DNA from: Kiritimatiellia bacterium
GTDB lineage: Bacteria; Verrucomicrobiota; Kiritimatiellia; RFP12; UBA1067
NCBI GenBank assembly: GCA_024405255.1
Contig: JAKSOY010000056.1
Span: 1 to 20,586 of the forward strand
Reading direction: 5' to 3'
Length of the DNA: 20,586 bases
Both the position numbers and the translations under genes were made by a program. Shown one piece after another: positions 1-19,364 of this stretch (the first letter of the stretch is position 1; each line of letters begins with the position of its first letter). The notes under the pieces are model-generated. The model was not told where the DNA came from, made no database searches, and saw only the letters and a list, made by a program, of their open reading frames with translations.

Positions 1-870
1 GACTATCATCTCTACGATGAATTCGTGAAACGGGAATATGTGTTCTTGGGGAAGAAACGGCAACATTATAAAGACTACCAAGACTATTCGATTGGGTTCC
101 TGACACGTGGTTGTTTCCGGCGGTGTTCATTTTGCGTAAACAAACACCACAAGTATGTTCGGCCACATGCGCACCTTGAAGAATTCTTCGATCCAGATCG
201 GAAATACATTTATCTTTGGGATGATAATTTCCTCGCATTGATAGATCATGCCGACCCTAATTCAAAAGAAGTAAAGAACGGAAGTTTGACATGGCAGTCG
301 CTACTTGGAGAATTGAAGGCGTCGGGACGTGCCTTTCAATTCCGTCAGGGGATGGATATTCGATTGGTCACACCTGAATTGGCTCGTACATTGGCAGACT
401 GTTATTACCATGGTGATTACATTTTTGCGTTTGATCACGTTCAGGACGCCAAACTGGTTGCTCGTAACCTCGACGTCTGGCGGCAATACAATCACAAGCT
501 CACAAAATTCTATGTCCTTTGTGGATTTGACAGCATTGACGAGGTTGATATTGCAAACACCTTAGAGAGGATTAGAATCCTGATGGAACATGGGGCCATT
601 CCCTACATCATGCGTCATAAGAATTACGAGAACAGTCGTTATCGTGGATTGTACGTGCAGCTTGCCCGTTGGTGCAATCAACCGCAATTCTTCAAGAAGA
701 AATCGTTTCGGGAGTATTGCGAGGCGTGCCAGGATTACTACATTGCGAATAGTAAGAATCCACGAAATGAGATCTGTGCACCGCTAGCAGAAATGCGATT
801 GTTCGAGTCTGAACATCCTGAAATCGCAAGAAAATACTTTGACATTCGCTTTGACAGACAAGGACAGTAA
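1..870 (+). CDS. Radical SAM enzyme, 5' partial
   Basis: The frame is open from the first base, reading DYHLYDEF before the GTG at 25, so the gene very probably begins upstream of the window and the GTG is internal. A CX3CX2C motif (RGCFRRCSFC, visible residues 38, 42 and 45) is the radical SAM 4Fe-4S/SAM signature. It is followed by a barrel-like region with YLWDDNF, FRQGMDIRL and a cysteine-rich C-terminal third (RWCNQP, YCEACQ). Radical SAM enzymes make a 5'-deoxyadenosyl radical for difficult C-H chemistry; the substrate here is unknown. I do not see the features of QueE, MoaA or SPASM maturases. Proteins of this look are, from memory, common in phages and mobile elements. The stop overlaps the AAGGAG that serves the next gene 11 bases downstream, so the two are probably co-transcribed. 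Confidence 0.85.
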   Translation, partial: DYHLYDEFVKREYVFLGKKRQHYKDYQDYSIGFLTRGCFRRCSFCVNKHHKYVRPHAHLEEFFDPDRKYIYLWDDNFLALIDHADPNSKEVKNGSLTWQSLLGELKASGRAFQFRQGMDIRLVTPELARTLADCYYHGDYIFAFDHVQDAKLVARNLDVWRQYNHKLTKFYVLCGFDSIDEVDIANTLERIRILMEHGAIPYIMRHKNYENSRYRGLYVQLARWCNQPQFFKKKSFREYCEACQDYYIANSKNPRNEICAPLAEMRLFESEHPEIARKYFDIRFDRQGQ

Positions 871-881
871 GGAGAAATCTC

Positions 882-1880
882 ATGGAATATGTTAAACTTC
901 CCGTCGAGAATATTCAACTCGACGTTGATAATCCTCGTATTCGCCACTGGATGGAATTGCATGGTGGGGAGATTACTGCTGAGGATCTCGCGCTTGCTTT
1001 GTCAGGAGGTGACAGCAATGGTTATCGTGCTTTGCATGAGTCAATTGTTGCAAACGGCGGAATCATTACACCGATCTTAGTCAATCGGACGAAGGATGGA
1101 ACACACGTTGTTGTCGAAGGCAATACCCGTGTTCAGATTTATAAAGAAATGTTTGGACAAACCTACGATCCCAAATGGGAGACTATCATATCGGTAGTGT
1201 ATGAAGATCTCCCGAAGGAAAGCATTCATGCGATCCGCCTGCAATCTCACCTCGTAGGTGCACGTGACTGGATTCCGTTCTCGAAGGCGAAATACCTCTA
1301 CTACTTGAGTGAAGAGAAGGAAATGCCATTGTCACAAATCATTTCTATTTGTGGTGGAACGGTTAAGTCGACTGAGATCAAGAAATTAATTGAGGCATAC
1401 AAGGATTATACGAGTTATTATGTTCCTGCGGCGGAAGCGGTTGACATGGATCCCGATCCACAAGAGTTTTCAAAGTTCGTTGAATGTCAGCGGCAAACTG
1501 TGCTAGATGCGCTTTTGAAAGGTGGATTTAACAAGTCAAATTTTGCGAAATGGGTTGTTGAAGAGCATGTTGACACGGCTATGAACGTTCGTCTTCTTCC
1601 TTCTGTTCTTGCCAATAAAGATGCTCGGCGACAGTTCCTAAAGACGAATATCAAGGATGCTTCGGATTTACTTGTTCGTGCGAATGTAGTACAAACGGAC
1701 CTTTCTTCGTTCTCGCTTTACGACCTTTCACAAGAGGTTTACAAAAAGTTAAAAGCCCTACCTTATGAAGAGTTCAAGTTGTTGAAGTACGACCCAACCT
1801 ACGTGCGAGAACGTGACATACTACACGTGCTTGGCGAACAACTTCAAGATAAGCTTGCTGACATTGATGACGAGGATTGA
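882..1880 (+). CDS. ParB/Srx-fold N-terminal domain protein (first copy)
   Basis: 332 residues; the ATG lies 7 bases after AAGGAG. Residues 8-110 resemble a ParB N-terminal domain: VDNPR near 15-19, a helix ending VANGGIITPILV (57-67), then VVVEGNTR (76-83). EGNTR occupies the place of the ParB GERR nucleotide-binding motif. Residues 120-145 contain HLVGARDWIPFSKA, a pattern shared with the second ParB-like protein of this operon. The remaining two thirds are helical with an acidic tail (DIDDED) and have no recognised domain. ParB-fold proteins range from CTP-dependent DNA clamps to nucleases and regulators, so the activity cannot be read from sequence. No ParA ATPase lies alongside, which argues against ordinary plasmid partition. 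The stop is 2 bases before the next start. Confidence 0.8.
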   Translation: MEYVKLPVENIQLDVDNPRIRHWMELHGGEITAEDLALALSGGDSNGYRALHESIVANGGIITPILVNRTKDGTHVVVEGNTRVQIYKEMFGQTYDPKWETIISVVYEDLPKESIHAIRLQSHLVGARDWIPFSKAKYLYYLSEEKEMPLSQIISICGGTVKSTEIKKLIEAYKDYTSYYVPAAEAVDMDPDPQEFSKFVECQRQTVLDALLKGGFNKSNFAKWVVEEHVDTAMNVRLLPSVLANKDARRQFLKTNIKDASDLLVRANVVQTDLSSFSLYDLSQEVYKKLKALPYEEFKLLKYDPTYVRERDILHVLGEQLQDKLADIDDED

Positions 1881-1882
1881 GA

Positions 1883-2287
1883 ATGAGTGAGTCGGCAAAG
1901 CATATCGAGCTTGTTGAGATGATCCGGCGTTTTGCTGTCGGTGTCGTAACATCTCAATATGCGTCGCTGATTCTTGTTGACAACCAGGAGTCGACAGAAA
2001 GGATTCGGATTGGAAGATATTATCCTGATGTGTATTTCAACTATAGTGGGATGCTTGTTATAGGAGAGGCGAAGACACTTGAAGATTTTTCGAGAAAGCA
2101 TAGTCGGGACCAATTTGAGGCGTATCTTGCCGCATGTTCTTCGTATCAAGGTGAGGCCACGTTGATTGTTGCGGTTCCCTGGATGCTTACGGCCACGGCG
2201 AAGAACTATTTTCGACATTGTGCTTCAATTCGCGGAAATACGAATATCGTCATTATTGAAGATTCCGGAAGGTGGTGTGAACTATGA
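1883..2287 (+). CDS. Small PD-(D/E)XK nuclease-like protein
   Basis: 134 residues from ATG 1883. A TTG six bases earlier is possible but would overlap the preceding stop. The core reads YYPDVYF (PD at residues 48-49), then after a hydrophobic strand IGEAKT (E62, K64), then a helix with Q77. This is the PD...(D/E)XK...Q layout of restriction-endonuclease-fold nucleases. The length fits stand-alone VRR-NUC or Holliday-junction-resolvase-like members. It ends in a 4-base ATGA overlap with the helicase, so the two are translationally coupled and probably act together as a DNA-cleaving and translocating pair. Identification rests on the motif alone. Catalysis is plausible because every core residue is present. 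Confidence 0.7.
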   Translation: MSESAKHIELVEMIRRFAVGVVTSQYASLILVDNQESTERIRIGRYYPDVYFNYSGMLVIGEAKTLEDFSRKHSRDQFEAYLAACSSYQGEATLIVAVPWMLTATAKNYFRHCASIRGNTNIVIIEDSGRWCEL

Positions 2288-3762
2288 GCATTGTCTTCCA
2301 TCATCCTGGTAGGCTCGAAGCCAAGAAGACGGCCTTCCCGTACCAGGTACAGGCTGTTGAGTCCGTGCGAGATTTACCGTATGCGGCAATTTTCCATGAA
2401 CCGGGACTCGGAAAAACCAAGATTGCCGTTGATCTCATGTTGTATTGGCTTGCGATGGGACGCGTTGATACCGTTCTCGTAATTACCAAAAAACAACTTG
2501 TCGCGAATTGGATAGGTGAACTTCAAGATCATACATTCCTTCGTCCAACCATATTGAATGCGGATAAGCGGAATAACTTCTTTGTGTTGAATGGAACTGC
2601 GCGGGTCGTTGTCACGAACTTTGAAATGGTCTCAACTGAGAAGAGGCGCATTTTGTTGTTTGCGAAGACTCGAAAGGTTGGTGTCATCATAGATGAATCA
2701 ACCAAAATCAAGAATCCCGATTCGCGATTGACGCGAGATTTTTTCGACCTTTCACCGCTTTGCGCCGTGAAGGTCATTATGACGGGGACACCCGTTGCGA
2801 ACCGTCCTTATGATATTTGGGCACAGGTGTATTTCCTAGATCAAGGAAAGAGTCTTGGTACGGATTTCAAGGCGTTTAAGAGAGAGACGGATCTCTCAAA
2901 CGAACTCTCGTCAGATCCGATTGCGAGTGATGCGTTTGAGGATGCGGTTGCGTCAATCTTTGATCGCGTCCGTCATTTCTCGATCCGCGAGACAAAGAAG
3001 ACGGCTGGGATTGTTTTGCCGGATAAAGTATATGAGACTGTCGTGGCGAAAATGGAGCCATTACAGCGTTCCATCTATGACAAAATTGTCCAAGACATGC
3101 AACTTGAAGTTGAACGCGATGGGGCGGTAGTGTTGGATGATGATAGTGCGGCCCTTAAACGGTTACTTCGTCTTGACCAGATAGCATCAAATCCAAAGCT
3201 TGTTGATGAACGATACAATAAAGTACCTTGTAAGGAAAAGCTTCTTGAAGATTTGCTTTCAAAGATCATCGCGGAAGGCGAGAAGTGTATCGTGTGGAGT
3301 TGTTTCATTGAAAACGTCGACTGGTTTTGGAAAAAGTATGCGCAATACAAGCCGCGGCGTATTCACGGCAAGTTGTCCATAGATGATCGTGACATGGCTG
3401 TGAAGGTGTTCAAGACTAATCCTGAATGTAAGGTCCTGTTTGCGACTCCCCAAGCGGCCAAAGAAGGGTTAACTTTGACCGTCGCGAATCATGTTGTTTT
3501 CTACGATCGAGGCTTCAACCTTGACGACTACCTTCAAGCGCAAGATCGTATTCACCGTATCTCGCAAAAGAAGGTTTGTTATGTCTATAACTTGATGGCG
3601 GCCGACTCGATTGATCAGTGGGTCGATCAGCTTCTTCAGGCCAAACAGCGTGCGGCGTTTCTTGCGCAAGGAGATATGAATCGAGAGGATTATGCCAAGG
3701 TCGCGGATTACAGCTACGGAGATTTGATTAGGCAGATTTTGTCTGGTAGAAATGGTATTTAA
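2284..3762 (+). CDS. SNF2-family DNA helicase/translocase
   Basis: 492 residues, an entire two-RecA-lobe SF2 core. Residues 16-22 (FPYQVQA) are the Q-motif region, HEPGLGKT (38-45) is Walker A, IIDEST (135-140) is a DEAH-box variant, and MTGTP (166-170) is motif III. The second lobe has VLFATPQAAKEGL (about 384-396) and QAQDRIHRISQ (about 418-428), the SNF2 motifs V and VI. No extra nuclease, bromo or zinc-finger domain is fused, and the size matches compact phage/mobile-element SNF2 proteins. These enzymes use ATP to move along duplex DNA and usually do not unwind it. The start overlaps the stop of the nuclease-like gene. In phages a VRR-NUC plus SNF2 pair is a known neighbourhood, and a nuclease plus SNF2 translocase also fits restriction-type defence. 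Confidence 0.9.
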   Translation: MSIVFHHPGRLEAKKTAFPYQVQAVESVRDLPYAAIFHEPGLGKTKIAVDLMLYWLAMGRVDTVLVITKKQLVANWIGELQDHTFLRPTILNADKRNNFFVLNGTARVVVTNFEMVSTEKRRILLFAKTRKVGVIIDESTKIKNPDSRLTRDFFDLSPLCAVKVIMTGTPVANRPYDIWAQVYFLDQGKSLGTDFKAFKRETDLSNELSSDPIASDAFEDAVASIFDRVRHFSIRETKKTAGIVLPDKVYETVVAKMEPLQRSIYDKIVQDMQLEVERDGAVVLDDDSAALKRLLRLDQIASNPKLVDERYNKVPCKEKLLEDLLSKIIAEGEKCIVWSCFIENVDWFWKKYAQYKPRRIHGKLSIDDRDMAVKVFKTNPECKVLFATPQAAKEGLTLTVANHVVFYDRGFNLDDYLQAQDRIHRISQKKVCYVYNLMAADSIDQWVDQLLQAKQRAAFLAQGDMNREDYAKVADYSYGDLIRQILSGRNGI

Positions 3763-3775
3763 AGGAGAAAACATT

Positions 3776-4780
3776 ATGGCTATAACTGATACGTACAAGG
3801 TAAATGGCAAGGGAATACCCTTTGAGGTACGCGATATTCCTCAGGACCAGCTTCAGTTCTATCCCGAGAACCCTCGTGTGTTTAGTATCATTGCGGCGAA
3901 GGGGATTGAGTCTCAAGATGAGATTGAGAATTGCATGCGTTCAATGGAACATGTCAAGCTACTCAAGACACAGATTCAGACACATGGAGGGTTGATTGAT
4001 CCCATTGTGGTACGTGATGGGGACTTTGTTGTCCTTGAAGGTAATAGCCGATTGGCGGCTTACCGTATGTTGCATGACATTGACCCGATTTCATGGAATT
4101 ACGTCAAGTGCCATGTCGTTCCGGCGGACATCAGTGCTGACGATGTCTTTGAACTGTTGGGCAATTGGCATATCAGTGGAAAGACAGCATGGACGCCTTA
4201 CGAACAGGCGGCGTTTTTGGTTCGCCAACTCAAAGCGAGTAAGAAACCGTTGCTTGCCCATGCGAAGTCACTTGGATTGACGAAGGCAATTGCCGAACAA
4301 TATGTTGAAACCTATGAGTTTATGGTCGAACATGGGGACGACAATGCGCATCACTGGAGTCACTATCTTGAGTTGCACAAGAACCGTGCTATTGACAAAT
4401 TCGCTGAACAGGTTCCCGTACTTAAGGAAACTGTTGCGGGGCAGATCAAAAGTGGTGCAATCCGTGATGCTAAAGACATCCGCAAACTTGGGGATATGGC
4501 CAAGGTTACATCCAAAGCAGCTAAGAAAATCATGGCCAAGGTGGCAGAGGGTGAATTGTCAATTTATGAAGGCTATGAGCAGATAAAGGATTCGGGAGCC
4601 CTTGACGATGTCCTTAAGAAGATTGAGAAATTCAGAGTTGCGATCAATGAGGAGACCTTTGAGGTTCAATGTGTCACACACAAGGACATTGCCAAGATTC
4701 AGTACGACTTGAAGAATATCAATAAGGTCATTGTCAAATTGATGGAAAAACTTTCTAAGGTCAAGGATGCCAAAAAGTAA
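3776..4780 (+). CDS. ParB/Srx-fold N-terminal domain protein (second copy)
   Basis: ATG 3776 is chosen over an upstream ATG at 3752 because AAAGGAG ends 8 bases before it and the upstream start overlaps the helicase gene; this gives 334 residues. Like the first copy it has FYPENPRV (28-35), a helix ending in THGGLIDPIVV (69-79), and VVLEGNSR (85-92), then WHISGKTAWTPYEQA (131-145), matching HLVGARDWIPFSKA of the first copy. The C-terminal half is rich in lysine and helix-forming residues and could bind DNA. The two proteins are divergent paralogues. Keeping both in one operon, on either side of the nuclease-helicase pair, suggests different partners or different DNA sites. Confidence 0.8.
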   Translation: MAITDTYKVNGKGIPFEVRDIPQDQLQFYPENPRVFSIIAAKGIESQDEIENCMRSMEHVKLLKTQIQTHGGLIDPIVVRDGDFVVLEGNSRLAAYRMLHDIDPISWNYVKCHVVPADISADDVFELLGNWHISGKTAWTPYEQAAFLVRQLKASKKPLLAHAKSLGLTKAIAEQYVETYEFMVEHGDDNAHHWSHYLELHKNRAIDKFAEQVPVLKETVAGQIKSGAIRDAKDIRKLGDMAKVTSKAAKKIMAKVAEGELSIYEGYEQIKDSGALDDVLKKIEKFRVAINEETFEVQCVTHKDIAKIQYDLKNINKVIVKLMEKLSKVKDAKK

Positions 4781-5565
4781 TGGACTCGAATCTCTCGACA
4801 TTCTTCCATCGATCCTTTGAGGCATCGCTCAACGAGGCGCTCTTGGAACGAGACTTTGTATTGAATCGAAAGATGGTTAGAACATATCTCACTACAATAT
4901 CGGAGATTCCTTGTTCTGCGTTTGTCGACTTTGCAATCTACAAAATGGCCAGGGATGGCCTAACGACGAATGATGTTCCTCAGTTCAGCGATTGGAGGGA
5001 TGGAACGGATGTTATCTGCGATAGGATTCGTGAGGCAGGTGATTCGGGGTTTGATCATTTTGCGATAGGAAAGTTACTTCGTGGTTTGGTTGCTGCGGAG
5101 GAGATGACGAAGTCACAAAGGTTTGTGATTGCTTGTCGCAAGTATGGAGAAGGGCACGCGAAGCTAGCACAATCACTTGGGCTACTGCAAGAATGCGAGA
5201 GGTTGTATTTCTTGAGTTGCATCGGGCAGTGTTGGCATGAACTCTCTGATGAGTTTCAAAAGAAGCTTTACACGCGATTCCTTCTTCGGACACGATTTGT
5301 TCGTGCACTTTTGCAACGGGCCGCCTTAGGATCGGTCTCGGTAAAGGATTTAGCGCTCCAGCTTGGATTGAGCAGATGGTCTGTTTACCGGCGTCATAGT
5401 AATGTAGTCTGTCTCTTGCGAAAGCTTTGCTCAACGGACGAGTATGACTTCTCGTTGCTGGTGGGGAGAATCAATACTGAAACGATGCTTGAACGACCTG
5501 ATGATCCCGTTGGAAAATTACGTTTACGGCGCGGGACCGATGGGGGTTTGGGTTTTGAGAAGTAA
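4780..5565 (+). CDS. Helix-turn-helix protein of unknown function, last gene of the operon
   Basis: 261 residues, starting in a TAATG overlap with the ParB-like gene, so translationally coupled to it. I recognise no full-length family. Residues 115-165 (CRKYGEGHAKLAQSLGL ... YFLSCIG) look like a winged-helix domain. Residues 184-216 (GSVSVKDLALQLGL then SRWSVYRRHSNVV) look like a second helix-turn-helix. From memory, paired winged helices ending in an RRxSN-type recognition helix occur next to restriction-enzyme-like proteins; sigma-like late regulators of phages are the main alternative. It has no transmembrane segment or signal peptide. The base composition matches the five genes before it rather than the chromosome to the right, so it appears to be the last gene of the foreign block. 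Confidence 0.6.
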   Translation: MDSNLSTFFHRSFEASLNEALLERDFVLNRKMVRTYLTTISEIPCSAFVDFAIYKMARDGLTTNDVPQFSDWRDGTDVICDRIREAGDSGFDHFAIGKLLRGLVAAEEMTKSQRFVIACRKYGEGHAKLAQSLGLLQECERLYFLSCIGQCWHELSDEFQKKLYTRFLLRTRFVRALLQRAALGSVSVKDLALQLGLSRWSVYRRHSNVVCLLRKLCSTDEYDFSLLVGRINTETMLERPDDPVGKLRLRRGTDGGLGFEK

Positions 5566-5680
5566 TCGGTCGGTGCGCGGGGCTGTGAGGACTCATAGGG
5601 TGGTTCTCAATGTTTCATCGTTAGATAATAGACCGCATCGCGGGATCTCATTCAAAGGATGCCGTTCCGATAAGCTTTGG

Positions 5681-5959
5681 CCCATTATCCAAATCAATCC
5701 CATAGAAACTATCCGACCTATCATTAATCAATCCCATCAAACCTATAGTACCTATCACAGGAGATCGGTCCCATCGGTCCGATCCGTCCCATCAGTCCCA
5801 AGACAAAAAAACAGGCACTCTGCATTGCGTGATGAATGCCTTGGTTTTTTCGTTGGGACGGATGGGACCGATTCTTTTTGTTGATAGGCTTGATGGGGGA
5901 GAAGGGATTGATTCTGATCGGTCTTATAGGCTTAGGATGGGATTGATTTCCATAATGGG
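5681..5959. repeat. 279-bp palindromic repeat element
   Basis: The outer 23 bases, 5681-5703, are the reverse complement of 5937-5959 at 21 of 23 positions. Within each arm the core AATCAATCCC occurs twice, 34 bp apart on both sides (5692 and 5726 on the left, mirrored at about 5903-5912 and 5939-5948). Nearer the centre both arms carry GGTCCCATC/GATCCGTCCC-like decamers in mirror orientation (about 5766-5800 and 5854-5871). No credible coding region lies inside. It could be a non-autonomous transposon-like element, a large intergenic hairpin repeat, or a multi-copy REP-like sequence. It sits just outside the last gene of the low-G+C operon. Confidence 0.75.
5805..5850. terminator. Possible bidirectional terminator at the palindrome centre
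   Basis: A run of seven A (5805-5811) and AGGCA (5813-5817) face TGCCT (5837-5841) and a run of six T (5845-5850). This gives a short GC-containing stem with an A-tract on one side and a U-tract on the other, so it could work in both directions. An alternative inner pairing GCATT/AATGC also exists. It lies about 240 bases after the last stop of the left operon, with no gene between. Confidence 0.45.
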
Positions 5960-6106
5960 GTCGTTGAGTTTGCAATGGACGACCGTTGGCCGGTTCTCGC
6001 GACGGTTGAGCGCAACGCATTTGATTTCGCTTCGTGTCCGGCAAATACCAGTCACGCCATCATCCCGTCACTCAAGGTTGCGCAGTCACGACGTCACGCG
6101 GTGAAC

Positions 6107-6133
6107 ATCCGTGGAATCCGTGTCATCCGTGGA
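6107..6133. repeat. Triple 9-bp direct repeat ATCCGTGNN
   Basis: ATCCGTGGA, ATCCGTGTC and ATCCGTGGA follow each other without spacing. The third unit overlaps the stop codon of the minus-strand remnant at 6123-6125. Such ATCCGTG tandem repeats are, from memory, common intergenic repeats in Verrucomicrobia/Lentisphaerae-type genomes. Confidence 0.6.
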
Positions 6134-6634
6134 CAAGATTGGCCTGGCTCTGCGGCGCGGCCTCGGGGTTGCGCCTCACCTGCGCGTAGAGCGCGCGGAT
6201 GGCGTCCAGCGACGGCCGCGGGTTCGTCGTCGCGCGGCGGCCCTGCCGACGGCGCCCGCGCGCACTCTCCGCCGCGTAGTAGGAGGGGCGGCTCTTTTGA
6301 ATTGAAAACGGAAAATGTAGAATGAAAAATGCCTGGTGGACTACGAAGGCCGTTTTACATTTTCCATTTTAAATTTTCCATTCGAATGGATCTCGCCCGG
6401 ACGCGCGGCGGGATGGACGCCCCGCTCTCGCTGCCAGCTCTCGATCGTGCGCGGGGTGCGGCCGATCGAGTGGCCCGTGCGGTTGACTTCGCGCCAGAAG
6501 GCGCGGCGGTACTCCTCCGAGTCGAGGCCGAGCACGTCCTGCTCGAACCACGCGAAGAAGGGCTTCGCGGGCGGTTCGTCCGGGGCGAGGGCGTGGCCGG
6601 CGGCGAGGAGGCGTTTCTGGATTGTGCGGTTCAT
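6123..6634 (-). pseudogene. GC-rich hypothetical gene split by an AT-rich repeat
   Basis: On the minus strand an ORF runs from ATG 6634 to 6341. Its first 80 or so codons (MNRTIQKRLL ... AFWREVNRTGHSIGR) show strong G/C third positions and a globular composition, so it is very likely truly coding. It then runs into an AT-rich repeat and stops. Beyond the repeat, in another frame, codons from about 6297 to 6123 again look coding (KSRPSYYAAES ... LDAIRALYAQVRRNPEAA). The simplest reading is one gene interrupted by a repeat insertion of roughly 95 bp that also shifted the frame. A functional 98-residue protein with a repeat-derived tail is the alternative. I recognise no family. The fragment GRTPRTIESW may belong to a small DNA-binding helix, but this is weak. 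It has its own promoter. Confidence 0.45.
6299..6386. repeat. AT-rich inverted GAAAATG repeat inside the minus-strand gene
   Basis: The left half carries GAATTGAAAAC and GGAAAATGTAGAATG on the plus strand. The right half carries the mirror elements ACATTTTCCATTTT and AATTTTCCATTC. The block is much richer in A+T than the coding sequence on both sides and separates two coding-looking stretches in different frames. It looks like an inserted small repeat, but I cannot define target-site duplications. Confidence 0.5.
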
Positions 6635-6642
6635 CGGGTACG

Positions 6643-6671
6643 AGTATAGCAAAGCGGGCGGGATGGTTCAA
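6643..6671 (-). promoter_or_regulatory. Minus-strand sigma70-type promoter of the split gene
   Basis: Reading the minus strand, TTGAAC (6671-6666) is followed by exactly 17 bases and TATACT (6648-6643). The ATG at 6634 is only 8 bases after the -10 box, so transcription would begin almost at the start codon. Confidence 0.65.
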
Positions 6672-6782
6672 GGAGAAAGTTTGATTTTGTTGCGGAACGG
6701 TTGAAGTGTGGCAAACGACGAAGGGGAGACCGCTGTGAATCATTCAGATGTGCCCAGTGAATTGTTTGGAAGTTGATATCGC

Positions 6783-6811
6783 TTGAAAAAAGTCTGCCGA
6801 CAAGGTATACT
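6783..6811 (+). promoter_or_regulatory. Strong sigma70-type promoter
   Basis: TTGAAA (6783-6788), a 17-base spacer and TATACT (6806-6811). This is the best promoter match upstream of the membrane protein gene at 7039 and of the possible small ORF at 6853. A hairpin starts directly after the -10 box. Confidence 0.7.
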
Positions 6812-6850
6812 AATCACCGATCTCCTTTGGAAAAAGAGGGGGCGGTGATT
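6812..6850 (+). promoter_or_regulatory. Leader hairpin just after the promoter
   Basis: AATCACCG (6812-6819) pairs perfectly with CGGTGATT (6843-6850). The inner TCTC/GAG part can extend the stem around an A-rich loop. Most of it would be transcribed at the 5' end of the mRNA, or it could be a dyad operator. The T run after it is short, so it is not a convincing terminator. Confidence 0.5.
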
Positions 6851-6852
6851 TT

Positions 6853-6966
6853 ATGGCACAATTCAAAGACGAGAATTTTGTTTGGAACAAACTTGAATTC
6901 CATTATGCGAATGGTTTACATGAAGGATTGAGGGTCAATCAACATCTTGCGCGGATTGGCGGGTGA
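6853..6966 (+). CDS. Possible 37-codon small ORF
   Basis: ATG 6853 opens a frame MAQFKDENFVWNKL ... HLARIGG ending in TGA 6964-6966. It follows a strong promoter and hairpin at the expected distance, with a purine-rich AGAGGGGG as a weak ribosome site about 10 bases upstream. I recognise no family. It could be a leader peptide for the membrane protein gene, a small protein, or chance. The rest of 6653-7038 shows no other gene. Confidence 0.3.
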   Translation: MAQFKDENFVWNKLEFHYANGLHEGLRVNQHLARIGG

Positions 6967-7038
6967 TGAGTTGAAGGAGGTGACTTGAAAAGTCGTGAGA
7001 GGCCAAATGGTAGAAGGCGTTGAGGAAAGGAGTTTAAG

Positions 7039-7458
7039 GTGAAAGCTAAAGTCAGATGGATTCGGATGGTGTGCGGGTTGCTGCTCGCTGATGTCTATTT
7101 GCTCGTTCCTTTGTTTCTTTTTGCCGGTCTCAGGTATGGCGGGTTAATGGGAAGTACAAAGAACGGCGCGGGATTCCATGCGTTCATGACGAACTCGGTC
7201 CTCATTCTTTTGGGGTTGAACGCCGTTGTCGTGTTGTTCGCGCATGGACTGCGATGGTTGTTTGTAATGACCACCTTTGTGCTGGGTTTTGTGTTTATTC
7301 CTTATCTCGGGGAGGCCTTCCTGGACATTTTCAAGTACGACAACAATGTCTTTTCCGAGGCCGTATTCCTGGTTTTGGGGATGTTTCTCTGGGGACTCAC
7401 TTTGTGGTGGCTGGCCACGGGTGTCGAATCCGGTTCCGACAAGGCCCCGAAGGAATGA
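7039..7458 (+). CDS. Small integral membrane protein of unknown function
   Basis: 139 residues from GTG 7039, preceded by AAAGGAG about six bases upstream. Four hydrophobic segments are visible at about residues 10-32, 52-69, 72-92 and 107-127. Loops are short and the C-terminal tail is charged and polar (ESGSDKAPKE). There is no signal-peptide cleavage motif and no motif that I can assign to a family. Base composition is intermediate between the foreign block and the chromosome. The nearest promoter is at 6783-6811, about 230 bases upstream, so the transcript would carry the leader hairpin and the small ORF. The next gene lies 195 bases on and has its own promoter-like sequence, so this gene is probably monocistronic. 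Confidence 0.65.
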   Translation: MKAKVRWIRMVCGLLLADVYLLVPLFLFAGLRYGGLMGSTKNGAGFHAFMTNSVLILLGLNAVVVLFAHGLRWLFVMTTFVLGFVFIPYLGEAFLDIFKYDNNVFSEAVFLVLGMFLWGLTLWWLATGVESGSDKAPKE

Positions 7459-7570
7459 GGAACGGATTTCGAACACGCCCTGTCAGCGCCGTAGGCCGTA
7501 GGCTCAAACGAGAGGAGAGAATGGCGAATGACTCAGATGCGCCCCCCTCAGGCAGGTTGTGAAAATAGAA

Positions 7571-7605
7571 TTGTACGGAGCGGGCCGATTTGGTAAGATT
7601 ATACT
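7571..7605 (+). promoter_or_regulatory. Probable promoter of the phosphodiesterase-like gene
   Basis: TTGTAC (7571-7576), 17 bases, then TAAGAT (7594-7599); a better -10 match, TATACT (7600-7605), overlaps but lacks a good -35. It is the only promoter-like sequence that I see in the 195-base gap. Confidence 0.4.
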
Positions 7606-7626
7606 GAAGCGCTTGGAGGGCGCTTC
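7606..7626 (+). promoter_or_regulatory. Perfect 7-bp stem hairpin in the leader
   Basis: GAAGCGC (7606-7612), loop TTGGAGG, GCGCTTC (7620-7626), directly after the -10 box and 27 bases before the ATG at 7654. It may stabilise or regulate the mRNA or be an operator. The exposed loop GGAGG resembles a Shine-Dalgarno sequence but is too far from the start to be the normal site. Confidence 0.5.
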
Positions 7627-7653
7627 GATGGATCGTCAGAAGGAAAAGGACAA

Positions 7654-9342
7654 ATGAAAAACTTGGTTTCTCGAATCGGTGTGGGCTCGGTGGCGGGTCT
7701 TGTGGTTTTGTGTACGGCTGTTCAGGCGGAGGGGGCGGCGTTGAAGCCGAAGGCGCTCTTGATCATGCTGGATGGTTTTCGGGCCGATGTGATGCTTAAC
7801 GGGTCGATGCCGAATGTGGATCGTCTGCGGGAAGGCAAATGGCAGCCGGGCTACTCCTGTGCCTGGTCGGCGAACGGCCAGACGATTGTCGACGCCCCCA
7901 CCGTGAGCGCCCCCAACCACACCGCCATTGCAACCTGTGTGAACGCCCAGAAGACGAAGGTCTTCGACAACGGTCAAACGCAGAAGGGGCTTTTCGACCA
8001 GTGGCCGACGTGGCTCATGCGCCTTGCTCGCGCGAATCCTTCTTTCAAGGCCTATTCGGTCTACTCCTGGAACGATGGCGACAACTATCCGCGCCATCCG
8101 CAGATTACGCACATCCGTACGCCTGAAGGCGTCCATTCCTGCGATGCCGACGAGAACAATGCGGCCGCGGTGGCGAAATTGCTCGCGGCGGCGGATGGTC
8201 CGGATGCAATTCAATACTTCGTCAACATGCCCGATTCCTATGGCCATCGTACGGGATACTATCCCTACGGTACCGGCTATCTCAATTCGATTGCCACGTG
8301 CGACCGCTACATCGGCGGCTGCCTCAAGGCGATCGCCTCGCGTCCCACTTTCGCCGAGGAGGATTGGGTGATTACGCTCACGGGCGACCATGGCGGCTAT
8401 GGTCGCGGCCACGGACAGTGCGGCGGCCACGCCTCCACGGTTCCTGTGGTGATTACGAGCCGCCATGTGCCGCAAGGACGCATCCCCGGCGTACCGCGCC
8501 ACTACGACCTCACGGCCACGGTGCTTGCCCACTTCGGACAGGATCCCGTGAAACTGAATCTCGACGGTCGCCCCATCACCCGCGTGGCGCCGCAACAGCC
8601 GGCGCGCGCCCTCACCGATTCCCTCGTCGCCTATCTGCCATTTAATACGCCCACGCCAGAGAATGCGATTGCAGGTGGACCGGTGGCCAAGGCGATTGGT
8701 CCGCGCGTGGTGATGGGCGACCGTTATTCCGGTTTCGCGAAAGGGTGCCTGTGCCTGCGAGACGCCAAGGGACCTGCAAGCGCCGTCCTGTTGGAAGGCA
8801 GCGACAAACTGCCTTTCGAGAACGGCAACAATTTTACGGTCACCCTCTGGGTACGTCATGGTGCCATTGAAAAGGACATGGGCGACCCTGCGATCTTCGG
8901 CAACAAGGATTGGAGCAAGGGTGTCAATCCCGGTGTCGTTCTCGCGGCCGGACGCCGGGCCTTCGGCGCGCATCGTCCGGGCATCTGCTTCAATACGGGC
9001 GTGACGGGTAACCGCGTGCAGCGCATCGACCTTGGAACCTACGATGTCGTGCCGGGTAAATGGACTTTCTACGCGGTGACAATGGACGCCGAAGGCACGC
9101 TCACGTTCTACCAGGGTGCGCCGGACGGCTACCTCTACTGGTTGAGCGACCGTGCGCCCGACATGGCCCTTCATGCGCTGCCGTTCTGCATTGGACAGGA
9201 CGGCACGGGCCACTACGCGAAGACGTTCAACGGCGACATTGACGACTTCGCCCTTTGGACGCGTTCGCTGACACGCGACGAAATCCGCCGCATCTTCGAC
9301 GCCGGCCGTCAAGGGGCCGAACTCGGCGATCTCTTGAAGTGA
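7654..9342 (+). CDS. Secreted NPP-type phosphodiesterase/pyrophosphatase with C-terminal LamG domain
   Basis: 562 residues. Residues 1-25 form a signal peptide (hydrophobic core, then AVQA before E26). The catalytic part, about 30-315, is alkaline-phosphatase superfamily of the nucleotide pyrophosphatase/phosphodiesterase type. LIMLDGFRAD gives metal ligand D40, and APTVSAPNHT gives nucleophile T83 followed by the NPP-like PNHT. PDSYGH gives D194 and H198, TGDHGG gives D245 and H246, and GGHAS gives H259. All ligands expected for two metals are present. Residues about 325-555 form a concanavalin-like LamG/laminin-G_3 domain ending in DIDDFALWTRSLTRDEI. The enzyme would hydrolyse phosphodiester or pyrophosphate bonds of nucleotides or lipids outside the cytoplasm, with the LamG part binding glycan. 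The substrate is unknown. The AAGGAAAAGGA before ATG supports the start. Confidence 0.85.
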   Translation: MKNLVSRIGVGSVAGLVVLCTAVQAEGAALKPKALLIMLDGFRADVMLNGSMPNVDRLREGKWQPGYSCAWSANGQTIVDAPTVSAPNHTAIATCVNAQKTKVFDNGQTQKGLFDQWPTWLMRLARANPSFKAYSVYSWNDGDNYPRHPQITHIRTPEGVHSCDADENNAAAVAKLLAAADGPDAIQYFVNMPDSYGHRTGYYPYGTGYLNSIATCDRYIGGCLKAIASRPTFAEEDWVITLTGDHGGYGRGHGQCGGHASTVPVVITSRHVPQGRIPGVPRHYDLTATVLAHFGQDPVKLNLDGRPITRVAPQQPARALTDSLVAYLPFNTPTPENAIAGGPVAKAIGPRVVMGDRYSGFAKGCLCLRDAKGPASAVLLEGSDKLPFENGNNFTVTLWVRHGAIEKDMGDPAIFGNKDWSKGVNPGVVLAAGRRAFGAHRPGICFNTGVTGNRVQRIDLGTYDVVPGKWTFYAVTMDAEGTLTFYQGAPDGYLYWLSDRAPDMALHALPFCIGQDGTGHYAKTFNGDIDDFALWTRSLTRDEIRRIFDAGRQGAELGDLLK

Positions 9343-9443
9343 CAGGTCGTTGCTTTGACGGCCTTGGATTTCGTGATTCGACATTCCTCATTGGATTGTG
9401 GGAATAGAGCCGAGTCGTCAAGCCAACGGAAGGGGGACGGACA

Positions 9444-10190
9444 ATGGATACTTTTGCGGAATATGATTTTCTCGTGAGGAGCTACGAGTGCGGTCCCGAG
9501 GGGGCGGCCTCGTTCTCTTCCATCTGCAATTATCTGCAGGAGGCGGCAAGTCGGCATGCCGAGAAGCTTGGGTTTTCCAAGGCGAATTTCATGGCGGATG
9601 GCGAGAACATCTCCTGGGTGCTGACGCGGATGCGCGTGAAGATGGTGCGTTATCCGAAGTGGGAAGAGACGGTTTCGGTGATGACTTACCCGCGGGGTGG
9701 GCGGCGGATAACCGCACATCGCGACTTCGTCCTGCGCATCGGCGACGAGACGATCGGCTTCGCGACGAGCGAATGGATGATCATCGATCTCGCCACGCGC
9801 AAGATCGTTCCCGTGCCGGCATCCGTCTATGCGCTGGCCAATGACGTGCGTCCGCCGGTGATCGACGGGGAGCCGTTTACGAAGCTGCGTTGGTCGTGTC
9901 AGGAGACGGCGGGCGAAATGTCGTTCCGTGCGCGGCGGAGCGACATCGATCTCAACGGACACGTCAACAATGTCCATTACATCGAGTGGCTGCTGGAGAC
10001 GTTGCCGGAGGGAACGGCGCCGATCCGCGATTTCGAGATCGCCTTCAAGTCCGAGACTCTGGCCGGCGATGAGGTCTGTGCGGACAGCGTCGAAGTCGAA
10101 CCCGGCGTCTGGGCGGCGCATGTCGCCTCGCCCGACGGACGCGACCACGTCGTCGCAAAGGTCGTGACCGCAGATCGTACGGACTTTTGA
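9444..10190 (+). CDS. Acyl-ACP thioesterase
   Basis: 248 residues with the double hot-dog layout of bacterial FatA/FatB-like thioesterases. The first hot-dog (about 5-130) has SICNYLQEAASRHAEKLG and later TYPRGGRR. The second begins near 145 and carries SDIDLNGHVNNVHYIEWLLE, the catalytic motif with D169, N171 and H173, close to the DxNxHVNN of plant enzymes. It releases free fatty acids from acyl carrier protein in the cytoplasm, for membrane lipid supply or export. GGAAGGGGG lies before the ATG. It sits between genes for secreted proteins, with 101 bases on the left and its own stop inside the next promoter on the right. No fatty-acid synthesis gene lies nearby. Family assignment is firm; chain-length preference cannot be read from sequence. 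Confidence 0.9.
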   Translation: MDTFAEYDFLVRSYECGPEGAASFSSICNYLQEAASRHAEKLGFSKANFMADGENISWVLTRMRVKMVRYPKWEETVSVMTYPRGGRRITAHRDFVLRIGDETIGFATSEWMIIDLATRKIVPVPASVYALANDVRPPVIDGEPFTKLRWSCQETAGEMSFRARRSDIDLNGHVNNVHYIEWLLETLPEGTAPIRDFEIAFKSETLAGDEVCADSVEVEPGVWAAHVASPDGRDHVVAKVVTADRTDF

Positions 10191-10215
10191 CGGATGGGCT
10201 GGAAAATGATAAAAT
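10187..10215 (+). promoter_or_regulatory. Sigma70-type promoter of the giant surface protein gene
   Basis: TTGACG (10187-10192), a 17-base spacer and TAAAAT (10210-10215), with an extended -10 TG at 10207-10208. The -35 box overlaps the TGA stop of the thioesterase gene. The ATG at 10267 lies about 45 bases after the expected start of transcription, behind AGGAGAGGAAGA. Confidence 0.7.
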
Positions 10216-10266
10216 AGGCAGCGTCGTTTTTTCTAAGGTCGTCTGTCGAATCAGGAGAGGAAGAAG

Positions 10267-13200
10267 ATGAACAAGTTTCTGCGAAGAGGATTCCTGCGGC
10301 GTCTTTGGGCGCTCGGCGGGGTGTTCGGCGTGTTTTTTGCGGCGCACGCCTACGATGTGCGAATTGAAGCGCCGACGGTCTGGTACAGTTTCGATCAGGA
10401 CAAGTCAGCTAACGACCTGCATTCGCTCGGCCTGACCCCCTTGACATTCAACAATGGCGTTCTAAAGGCCACCAGTGTGGTGTCCGAGGCCTCGCCGAAC
10501 GGCAAGGCACTCAAGGGGGCGGCCATCATTTACGGGTCGTCCTTCCCCTACGGCGCGGGCGATTGGACCACGGTGACGCGCATCAAGGCGCGGCCGGCGA
10601 GTTCGACCTCGGTCGACTATCCGGTGCTCTGGAGCTACGGCCGCATGACCGATGCGAAGCTCGACAACTTCGGCCTCTACATGAACGGCAAGACGGCGGG
10701 CCGCATGCGCTGGGCGATGGCGAAAAGCAGCAAGTTTACGGCCGGCCAGATCATCGACTTCGACGTGCCGACGGCGAACACGGCCTACCACACCTACGCC
10801 GCCATCTATCGTTCGGCGCGCAAGCAGGTGGACGTCTATTGCGACGGCGTGAAGGTGGGAACGCTCAATTGGACCACCTGCAGTTCGAGCAACGCGAACT
10901 GGTGCTGGTATACGAACTCGGGCGCCAATGCGGCGGGGAGCGGGGCCGCCTTCAATAGCCCCATGGACGACTTCCGCCACTATCAGCGGGCACTGTCGGA
11001 CGAAGAACTCGTTCTCCTCCACAACCAGCTTGATGCGGGCCACGTCTATGGCGGACCGCTCGGCATGACGAGCCTCCTCGTGTGGAAGGACGTGCAGCTC
11101 GCGGACATCAAGAATTTCCAGGCGCTGACCTTTTCGAAGTCGTTCTCCACCTCGGTTGACAATCTCTGCAGACCCTGGACGGCGCACGTGCTTTCCAATA
11201 ACGGAACGACGGCGAATGTGCAGTTCCAGTATGGCGCCATACGTTGGGTGCGCGTGACCTTCACCCAGCAGGGGGACGATGTGTATGCGAGCATTCCCGC
11301 CAAGGGCGTGGGCTATGGCAGTTTCACCGCCGGTGTGGATGTGACCACGAAAACGGCCACGGCTACGTGGGATCCGCTTACGGGCGATTTCTACTACAAT
11401 GTCGTGGGCCTCACCTACGATACGGTCGGCCGTGCAGATGAAGAATCGTACTTCACCTGGTATGCCCCCGAGGGGGGCGTTGCGTCGGCGGTCGGCAACT
11501 ATCGCCAGTACTGGAACACGCCGGCGAATCTCGCCACGGCGAAGCTCTATTTCCCGTATGCGGATGGTTTGCGACACACGGTGACGGTGCGCAACCGGTG
11601 CGTGCTCGGCAATGTGGCGGTGGATGGCGACTACGTGTTCACGGAAGGAGGCGGACTCGACTGTGCGGCGCTCGACCTCGGTGCGACGGCGCGTCTCGAA
11701 TACGATCCGGCGGCCATTCCCGTGCATCTCGCCACGGCGCCGACAATCGCCGAAGGGGCGAAGTTCGCGTTGCCGGCTCGCTACGCCACGGCCACCAAGG
11801 GACGGCTTCTCGTGATGAGCTGGAACACGGGCACGTTCCCCGCCGAGCGCCTCGCCGATTTCTTCAATGCGGCAAGCTGTCCGGCGGTGCATCCGGTTCT
11901 TTCCGTGGAAGGAAATGCCCTGTGGCTCACGCTTGATCCCGACTGGCAGCCGCCGAAGGTGTCAGTGCTCGCGGTGGGCGACTCGATTACGGACGGTGTG
12001 GGCGCGGCGCCGTGTCCGAACTGGCGTCTGCCGCTCATGAAGAGGCTCACCGCGCTCGGCTACGAGCCGACGGCGCTCGGGTTCCGCACGAACAACCACA
12101 CGGACGCCTCGGGCGTTGACGCGCCGGACGCGTGGCGCGCGCATTCGGGCGTGGGCGGGCAGTTCGCCCACACGTCGGCGGCGCAGGGCGGCGTGGTGGA
12201 CACGATCTGCCCCTACCTCGAGCAGGCGGGCGTGCCGGATGTGACGGTGCTGCTCTTCGGCTACAACGACATCAACGGGTCCAACTACACCGGCGAGCAG
12301 CTCTACAACGTGTGGAAGGAAACGCTCGACCGTGCGATCGCGTACCGTCCCACGACGAAATTCGTGTGCGGCTCGGTGATCCCCAACGTTTCCTCGGGTT
12401 TCGCGGCCGCGAAGAAGACGGCGATTCAGGATTTCCGTACGCGTATGATGGCGCAGATCGCGAAGGCGCCCGACGAGCCCGGTGCGTTCCCGGCGAACCA
12501 GGTCTTCCTCGCCGACACGTATCAGGCGATTCCCCAGACGACGGGGTCGTATTCGTCCGACGGGTGCCATCCCGACTGGTACGGACACACCGTGATGGCC
12601 GACTGCTTCGCGACGGCGATCACGAATGTGCTTGCGGCGCCGCAGCCGGTGGGCGTGGTGACGACGAATTTGCTGGAAGGGGCCGTGGCCAACGTGCCGG
12701 CCGCCTATCGCGCGGGCTTCAAGCTCTGCCGCACGCTCCATGTGGCGGAGACGGGCAACTTCACGATGGATGTGCCGCCGACCTACGATCCTGTGAATGA
12801 GACGATGGACGGTCCGACCGCCAATATCTCGCGCGTCGGCTACTATGTGGAACTGCGGCGCAAGGGACGTGCCCACCGGCGGTTCGTGTGGGCCGACATG
12901 GACGCCTTCGGGGCGCGCGACCTCGCCACCGTGGGCGTGCCCACGATGTCCGACACGGCCTTCCAGGGACTCGCCACACGCCTTCACGTGTATAGCAACG
13001 ATCCGGGTGTGGACAACGTGGACGCGACCAACAACACGGTGAGCGCCTGGCTTGAATTCTGGCCGGAGACGAGCGAGAACCGTGCGTGCGGCCTGCCGGG
13101 TTCGCCGGTGAAGACCTTCACGACGGGACTCGACTGGAACGATTCGCGGGGGACGAATCCGCGCGGGTCGATGCAGGTGCACCGCCTGTGCAATGAAGGT

Positions 13201-16068: not shown

Positions 16069-16071
16069 TTA

Positions 16072-16140
16072 GGTTAAAGATTAAAGGTTAAAGGTTAAAG
16101 GTTAAAGATTAAGGGTTGAAGGGTAACGGTTTGAAGGGTA
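16072..16140. repeat. 7-bp-period telomere-like array (GGTTAAA)n
   Basis: Beginning 4 bases after the esterase stop, the units run GGTTAAA, GATTAAA, GGTTAAA three times, GATTAAG, GGTTGAA, GGGTAAC and then decay. The period is 7 bp with GG/GA alternation. The reverse complement of the same pattern is found at 19244-19346, so the two arrays bracket the block 16168-19198. Confidence 0.85.
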
Positions 16141-19243: not shown

Positions 19244-19346
19244 CCCTCTAACCCTTTAATCTTTAACCTTTAACCCGCTCTCCCCCCTTGGCGTCCGGTA
19301 CCTCTAACCCTCTAACCCTTTAATCTTTAACCTTTAACCCTTTAAC
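19244..19346. repeat. Telomere-like TTTAACC array with a perfect 33-bp direct repeat
   Basis: The 33 bases at 19244-19276 recur exactly at 19308-19340, 64 bp apart, and each is made of 7-bp units TAACCCT, TTAATCT, TTAACCT. The orientation is opposite to the array at 16072-16140. The spacer GCTCTCC ... CCGGTACC between the copies contains no gene. Confidence 0.85.
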
Positions 19347-19364
19347 TTTTTTTCACATCTGCCC

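Follow-up and report, generated by a model that had tools for sequence, protein, structure and literature searches.

The chemical self-marks known from immunity are methylation, phosphorothioation, and 7-deazaguanine. In restriction-modification of the DpnII type, the endonuclease cuts unmodified DNA, and phages carry orphan methylases against host restriction. Termed MORC/paraMORC, another group of restriction-modification operons combines genes for a GHKL ATPase, a SWI2/SNF2 helicase, a nuclease, and a methylase, as set out in the main text of Iyer 2008 (PMC2292703). This report concerns a six-gene operon at the left end of a 20,586-nucleotide stretch from a Kiritimatiellia bacterium (assembly GCA_024405255.1, contig JAKSOY010000056.1, positions 1 to 20,586 of the forward strand), and "the window" denotes that whole stretch. 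The gene content of the operon resembles that of a restriction-modification system, which suggests both a DNA mark and a role in defence. The reading favoured here, at a probability of about 0.6, is a restriction-modification-like anti-phage defence in which a radical S-adenosylmethionine (SAM) enzyme would mark self-DNA and a set of two ParB-like proteins, an SNF2 motor, and a small nuclease would attack unmarked DNA.

Within bases 1 to 5565 lie six co-directional open reading frames (ORFs) with overlapping or nearly touching ends, as seen in the ORF map and in the junctions read directly. A first, sequence-only reading of the window had placed them there, and they are found where it put them, gene 1 being cut by the window edge:

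1..870, plus strand: radical SAM enzyme, C-terminal 289 residues, candidate modifier of self-DNA (phrog_9298, expectation value (E) 1.6e-29; CxxxCxxC motif)
882..1880, plus strand: ParB-a, ParB/Srx-like protein with EGNTR at residues 79-83 (PHROG ParB families)
1883..2287 (ORF open from TTG 1877), plus strand: small predicted nuclease of the PD-(D/E)XK type, 134 amino acids (motif and AlphaFold model)
2284..3762, plus strand: SNF2-family DNA translocase, 492 amino acids (PF00176 2.2e-26, PF00271 1.3e-18)
3776..4780 (ORF open from 3752), plus strand: ParB-b, paralogue of ParB-a (phrog_3694, phrog_4715)
4780..5565, plus strand: helix-turn-helix (HTH) protein, 261 amino acids (weak HTH matches)

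Genes 2 to 6 are complete, while gene 1 is truncated at its 5ʹ end, with 289 amino acids left; its relatives in loci of the window type are encoded by ORFs of 385 to 475 amino acids in 18 of 19 cases and of 649 in one. The stop codon of the radical SAM gene (868-870) is followed by GGAG and then by the ParB-a ATG at 882. The nuclease most likely starts at ATG 1883, which is favoured over TTG 1877 because relatives begin MSES. The SNF2 gene, from ATG 2284, shares 4 bases with the end of the nuclease gene, the ParB-b ATG at 3776 is preceded by AAAGGAG, and gene 6 starts with an ATG that overlaps the stop codon of ParB-b at 4780. The base composition also differs from that of the right-hand region, as had been claimed: the guanine-plus-cytosine (GC) content is 44-47% across 1-5.5 kb versus 59-67% across 7.5-18.5 kb.

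The sequence-only reading saw a DNA-targeting gene set that matched no named system. This is supported: four of the genes form a conserved cassette, and no published description of the set was found in open-licence PMC papers, a search with most subscription papers and all preprints outside it. Passages of the Dnd (PMC10853773) and BREX (PMC12839542) surveys likewise leave the gene set undescribed. MORC/paraMORC operons are alike in the gene classes named above; they differ in that the main text of PMC2292703, figures being outside the comparison, contains neither "ParB" nor "radical," and none of the window's six genes encodes a GHKL ATPase. The Dpd (7-deazaguanine) and Dnd (phosphorothioate) systems share the concept of a DNA mark joined to a restriction machine. 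Moreover, one subtype of the cassette has a DndB/DpdB-like protein, and the window SNF2 protein is similar to DpdE (1.5e-35). However, no Dnd or Dpd modification enzyme is among the matches of the window's six proteins, the radical SAM enzyme being the sole candidate modifier, and the visible part of the window, whose left flank is beyond the edge, holds no DndB-like protein. The SNF2 protein additionally matches ZorD1 of Zorya (1.6e-44), DrmD of DISARM (3.1e-21), and BrxH of BREX (1.1e-13), although the 492-residue motor covers only part of these longer models. Both ParB proteins match PD-Lambda-5_A and PDC-M38A at roughly 2e-5 to 3e-6 (in PADLOC, ParB-a at 9.5e-6 and 2.1e-5, respectively, and ParB-b against PDC-M38A at 3.1e-6). 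No further component of Zorya, DISARM, BREX, PD-Lambda-5, or PDC-M38 occurs among the six proteins.

The four central genes recur as a unit. Profile scans with A1, an alignment of 31 ParB-a sequences, yielded 71 genome loci and seven loci on viral contigs (IMG/VR), and tblastn yielded seven plasmid records, six of which were used (H37 was left out as the same organism and match as H38). These 84 loci and the window make up the 85 examined; phages L001 and L002 were no candidates for the count. The full core of ParB-a, nuclease, SNF2, and ParB-b is present in 79 of the 85: 66 genome, seven viral-contig, and five plasmid loci and the window. The nuclease and SNF2 families are found in 79 of 79 by selection. 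Left out for an incomplete core were L007, L025, L050, L068, L072, and L079, of which L025, L068, L072, and L079 stop at a contig edge and L007, L025, and L072 do carry the radical SAM gene. The order ParB-a, nuclease, SNF2, ParB-b on one strand is kept in 78 of the 79 full-core loci (L074 is rearranged), with median intergenic gaps of 0, -4, and -4 bases, and this recurrence is more than chance. The sequence-only reading proposed looking for genomes in which at least four of the six genes co-occur, and the 79 loci are such cases. It also held that a gene order found only inside complete prophages would mark an ordinary phage module; instead, the 66 genome and five plasmid loci hold the full core besides the seven from IMG/VR and the window.

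By record, the hosts span many phyla and include Lachnospiraceae, Bacteroidales, Fibrobacteraceae, Bacilli, Rhizobiales, Acidobacteria, Dehalococcoidia, and Saccharibacteria. The cassette is rare and patchy, being found in 1 of 395, 1 of 286, and 2 of 387 genomes of three taxon samples (E 1e-50; the centre genome included each time). Decayed copies also occur: L050 (7622-9509) is a degraded cassette with a shortened SNF2 gene and with ParB-b and the modifier missing, and in L052 (10001-11014) ParB-a is split over two frames.

Radical SAM genes of a single family accompany 73 of the 79 full-core loci, the window included. In the other six (L022, L023, L030, L033, L055, and L071), a D12-class adenine methylase lies beside the cassette, confirmed by PF02086 in six of six (E 6e-50 to 7e-67). 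No full-core locus has both modifiers adjacent, and none has neither (0 of 79 each); adjacency of methylases in host loci was scored from D12 and N6_N4 matches above 100 bits, and C5 methylases were sought by motif, which gave none, and separately. Furthermore, the radical SAM family is absent from the genomes of the methylase-type loci (0 of 6 at E 1e-5), whereas all four control genomes have it, at the cassette. By family, a dedicated modification enzyme linked to the restriction genes is present as a D12 methylase in six loci, and in 73 that slot is filled by the radical SAM enzyme. Such a position, that of a DNA methylase, together with the viral copies beside methylases described below, lends indirect support to the suggestion of the sequence-only reading that this enzyme could be a modifier of DNA.

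The methylase-type loci tie the cassette to DpnII-type restriction-modification. Two of them, L022 and L023, place it inside a complete DpnII gene set, in the order D12 methylase, N6_N4 methylase, cassette, DpnII endonuclease (E 5e-108 and 1.6e-109). To our knowledge, the cassette is no part of classical DpnII systems, and the window and 72 other full-core loci differ from these in having the radical SAM gene in the methylase slot. L030 and L033 carry a DUF6997 protein (in L030 by Pfam, in L033 by similarity to that of L030), and in L055 and L071 the methylase was recognised but no DpnII or DUF6997 gene. Junctions overlap or nearly touch in L022, L023, and L033. In a midpoint-rooted tree of 1280 concatenated columns, the six methylase loci form one clade (support 1.0) nested among the radical SAM loci and therefore represent a single natural replacement. 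A Fisher test of the modifier exchange gives 3.6e-9, ignoring kinship, a value that overstates independence because the replacement is one clade and one event. A possible D12 relic in L082 was rejected, as this 99-residue ORF, judged by eye, resembles the L055 protein in nothing but the N-terminal HTH region. L030 additionally has a MetK-like gene (4249-5031), similar to viral ones, about 2.7 kb upstream of its cassette methylase.

Gene 6 and its counterparts vary between loci. The 79 full-core loci comprise radical SAM with GHKL ATPase (22), with the HTH protein (20, the window type), with GHKL and a DndB/DpdB-like protein (17), radical SAM alone (13), radical SAM with only a DndB-like protein (1), and the methylase type (6), so that GHKL is present in 39 and a DndB-like protein in 18. 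In L003, the DndB-like protein matches PF14072 (1.8e-11) and DpdB (1.5e-17), and the GHKL protein matches HATPase_c_3 (2.3e-10). Plasmid pR132505 of the soil symbiont Rhizobium leguminosarum bv. trifolii WSM1325 has the cassette together with genes for a DndB-like protein, a radical SAM enzyme, and a GHKL ATPase. The window's gene 6 has only weak HTH matches by Pfam, and it aligns to the DUF6997 protein with an hhalign probability of 62. Some relatives are fused to further domains: sigma-70 in L036 (13862-16201; Sigma70_r2 1e-15) and L041 (13861-16917), and S24 and SBD-like regions in L021 (8074-9771; Peptidase_S24 9.5e-10, NF045808 3e-6). A likeness to MZA systems appears here, as the best NCBIfam match of the L041 protein, with its sigma-70 region, is MzaA (6e-44) and the L048 GHKL protein is weakly MzaB-like (2e-4).

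Viruses carry the radical SAM enzyme as well. When the window-type radical SAM alignment was run against viral contigs, it found 166 relatives, of which the best 80 (L092-L171; 46-72% identical) were analysed and collapsed at 80% identity to 37 non-redundant loci. A wider viral scan (at least 368 relatives) was left out of the analysis, with one of the seven cassette contigs among its matches listed, and L088-L091, of about 4 kb each, enter no count. These genes belong to phrog_9298, the family of gene 1, and viral and host sequences interleave in the tree: L092 falls among enzymes of Lachnospiraceae and relatives, L093 beside them (support 0.998), and L157 beside L016 at a weak node (0.249). 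The phage family differs from the host genes in its surroundings, as ParB-a, ParB-b, and the nuclease occur in none of these best 80 of the 166 loci, while seven other viral contigs hold both enzyme and cassette. A DNA methylase lies no more than two genes away in 20 of the 37 loci (permutation mean 6.4, maximum 16 in 2000) and no more than one gene away in 16 (mean 3.25, maximum 12 in 2000). A MetK-like gene within two genes, in 6 of 37, is less certain (a count attained in 25 of 2000 permutations), and no more than one gene away it is not enriched (2 of 37; 821 of 2000), nor is SNF2 within two genes (1 of 37). Terminase and PAPS-reductase-like genes are also nearby, and Pfam confirmed one example each of C5, N6_N4, MetK, PAPS reductase, small terminase, and large terminase. 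This neighbourhood of MetK-like, N6/N4 and C5 methylase, PAPS-reductase-like, and terminase genes resembles a phage DNA-modification block. Among named phages, 15 of 50,697 records have a radical SAM relative, including NatCom_21982, where the gene follows a methylase. By analogy, the viral copies may correspond to the orphan methylases that phages keep against restriction.

How such a system would work can be outlined. The radical SAM enzyme would put a chemical mark on host DNA, at sites perhaps chosen with the two ParB-like proteins in a role like that of HsdM/HsdS in type I systems. The ParB pair, acting in site recognition or clamp loading, would load the SNF2 motor on unmarked DNA; the motor would translocate and bring in the small nuclease to nick or cut that DNA. 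The HTH protein in the window type, and the GHKL ATPase with or without the DndB/DpdB-like protein in the other, may be accessory readers or regulators. Phages with orphan radical SAM copies would, most simply, wear the mark themselves.

Several observations weigh against this restriction-modification-like reading. The exchange of radical SAM for methylase counts as a single event, and the nesting of its clade depends on midpoint rooting. L042 (C5) and L038 (weak D12, 32 bits) carry methylase genes further off, the degraded locus L050 lacks both kinds of modifier gene, and no DNA-binding domain was recognised in the radical SAM protein. On the viral side, full 5-kb flanks are available for only 35 of the 80 loci, so that the cassette can be called absent with certainty only close to the gene. 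All seven cassette-bearing viral contigs, which are outside the 80, carry the radical SAM gene too, and the viral copies are therefore not all orphans. Moreover, in 17 of the 37 viral loci no methylase was recognised up to two genes away, and the window itself has no defence neighbours on its visible side.

If the mark were instead the target, the cassette would be a modification-dependent, type IV-like system attacking radical-SAM-marked DNA, with the resident enzyme regulatory or a decoy. Viral radical SAM genes are common enough (166 relatives) for their mark to be a possible target, and the gene 6 protein of L021 carries an SBD-like region; however, with the enzyme resident in 73 of 79 cassettes, such a system would turn on self-DNA, and the DpnII-type partners cut unmodified DNA. 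This alternative is very unlikely. Slightly less credence still is given to a viperin-like system, in which the radical SAM enzyme would make a chain-terminating nucleotide and the cassette would be an independent nuclease arm. Prokaryotic viperins are antiviral radical SAM enzymes, according to the part of PMC12926258 drawn on here, but the presence of the enzyme in at least 80 viral loci would be odd for an antiviral poison, and in one clade a methylase replaces it. Furthermore, the full-length enzymes of L003, L009, L016, and L048 and the window fragment have no PADLOC match, and no viperin model is among the PADLOC or NCBIfam matches (whether PADLOC holds a viperin model was left unchecked).

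The sequence-only reading had named a phage replication module as its rival, and an ordinary phage replication or recombination module stranded in the chromosome would account for the regions of phages L001, L002, and L172 in which radical SAM and SNF2 genes occur together, in L172 with a VRR-NUC gene as well. SNF2 matches are found in 2,188 of the 50,697 phage records, all below 60% identity, and seven viral contigs hold the cassette. ParB-a, ParB-b, and the nuclease, however, have no match in those 50,697 records (E 1e-5), so that the idea fails its own test; SNF2 alone occurs. The cassette is found in 66 genome loci, the right flank of the window is not phage-like, and single-sequence scans of viral contigs with ParB-a and SNF2 gave no relative. 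The nuclease profile finds nothing in L001, L002, or L172, and kinship of the cassette nuclease with the L172 VRR-NUC was rejected for lack of any alignment, a weak test with a single sequence. The phage-module explanation is thus largely refuted and is considered highly improbable. In L172 (Bacteroides phage BKO1-TP3), the region in question (3771-12590) holds a distant radical SAM gene with SNF2, VRR-NUC, methylase, and PAPS reductase genes and is also without ParB-a and ParB-b. The IMG/VR contig L082 (7970-17464) has the cassette after an amidase/glucosaminidase lysin gene, like cargo behind prophage late genes, preceded by genes that look tail-like by eye.

The radical SAM protein of the window matches phrog_9298 at 1.6e-29, its Pfam score is under that model's cut-off, and it is 50% identical to the L013 protein. 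The superfamily motif CxxxCxxC is at fragment residues 38, 42, and 45, and its cysteines are invariant in 114 of 114 relatives as well as in the window; other conserved residues are D74, N76, F114, Q116, G117, and D119. Searched against the PDB as a profile, the radical SAM alignment had no significant match (best E 0.045). The enzyme of L003 has weak matches to B12-type enzymes (E 2e-4 to 3.5e-3), which makes C-methylation one candidate chemistry, and to RimO (2.3e-3). Methylthiotransferases (MiaB/RimO) have three further conserved cysteines for a second cluster. The present family does not fit this subclass: outside CxxxCxxC, no cysteine is present in more than 50% of the sequences of both subtypes among the 114 relatives, and sharing only the three cluster cysteines speaks against a methylthiotransferase. 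One extra cysteine, found in 64 of 66 members of the window-type and viral group, is not indispensable, as the window protein has alanine there. The weak matches to B12-type enzymes and RimO, whose substrates differ, would also fit another kind of defence system, as would the lack of a recognised DNA-binding domain: the radical SAM enzyme might act on a partner protein, on tRNA, or on a small molecule rather than on DNA bases, with the methylase clade following a different logic. Such a target is unlikely, since the enzyme shares its slot with a DNA methylase and has DNA methylase genes as neighbours in viruses.

Both ParB-like proteins match PHROG ParB families (ParB-a 3.6e-6; ParB-b 3.2e-6 with phrog_4715 and 1.3e-10 with phrog_3694). 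PF02195 is present in many relatives, while Pfam finds none in the window's two copies; the A1 profile matches structures of Noc and ParB with E 0.002-0.025. When 12 genomes were searched with the ParB-a profile, each of the 12 gave a second copy, roughly 3 kb beyond the ParB-a start. Proteins of this kind could belong to a plasmid or island maintenance or partition module, and L003 lies near repB, repC, and vapBC genes and L005 has a ParA gene about 6 kb from ParB-b. Nevertheless, 66 genome versus five plasmid full-core loci, a modification enzyme in every full-core locus, and the absence of ParA among the window's six genes by Pfam and NCBIfam leave a partition role with scarcely any likelihood.

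For the small protein, the PD-(D/E)XK assignment is a prediction from the motif P50-D51 / E64-A65-K66 / Q79, in which D51, E64, A65, and Q79 are invariant in 58 sequences, and from an alpha/beta AlphaFold model with a predicted local distance difference test score of 92.4. It has no Pfam or NCBIfam match and no significant match in the PDB (best E 0.16, to an unrelated design; Hjc 0.91). The SNF2 motor, 66% identical to that of L012, combines its two Pfam domains with the conserved motifs GLGKT, DE, TGTP, and QAQDRIHRISQ and matches 1z63, a Snf2/Rad54-family helicase, at E 3.9e-31.

Around the cassette, neighbours include AAA_21/AAA_15, RhuM, YhcG, Fic, Schlafen, and serine-recombinase families beside ordinary genes. 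The scan covered, in each batch, the 25 most frequent families (from totals of 137 and 115), and it took in 142 plus 140 of 285 neighbour genes, with three left out (two system genes and one ORF overlapping such a gene). Counts per family were low, with maxima of 4 of 142 and 6 of 140, and they were set against no background, so that the location beside known defence genes, suggested as a check by the sequence-only reading, stands only qualitatively.

In the window, the right flank looks like ordinary chromosome. Six of eight proteins scanned have non-phage Pfam matches (a phosphodiesterase, an acyl-ACP thioesterase, two GDSL esterases, a nitroreductase, and a solute-binding protein), and two have none; downstream of these genes are tRNA-Thr and EF-Tu, the one tRNA in the window being 14 kb from the 5565 boundary. 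This EF-Tu shows 94% identity to that of 2 of 288 genomes sampled from the phylum of L051 (Opitutia), which makes a host in Verrucomicrobiota probable. The foreign origin put forward by the sequence-only reading is likely, judging from the composition and patchy distribution of the operon. In stretches from G894, G944, G970, and G889, only EF-Tu matched the window, so no empty site was found in these four genomes. Elsewhere in the window, a 1530-residue protein with LamG and GDSL domains is encoded at 10267-14859, and the long antisense frame (11962-14841) is probably a shadow produced by the high GC content. Short tandem repeats with units of 7-8 bases (such as AGGTTAA and CCTTTAAC) are intergenic at 16071-16140 and 19300-19350.

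A broader proposal is more tentative, at a little short of an even chance: bacteria of many phyla may bear an undescribed DNA mark installed by radical SAM enzymes and policed by the cassette, with phages having captured the enzyme repeatedly to obtain the same mark. If true, a DNA mark made by radical SAM chemistry would join the short list of self-marks in immunity, and a restriction-modification class would be defined by radical chemistry on DNA. The viral family phrog_9298, now annotated only by domain, would gain a function, and its retention beside methylases in phages would be explained. The system would also point to a nucleoside detectable by mass spectrometry.

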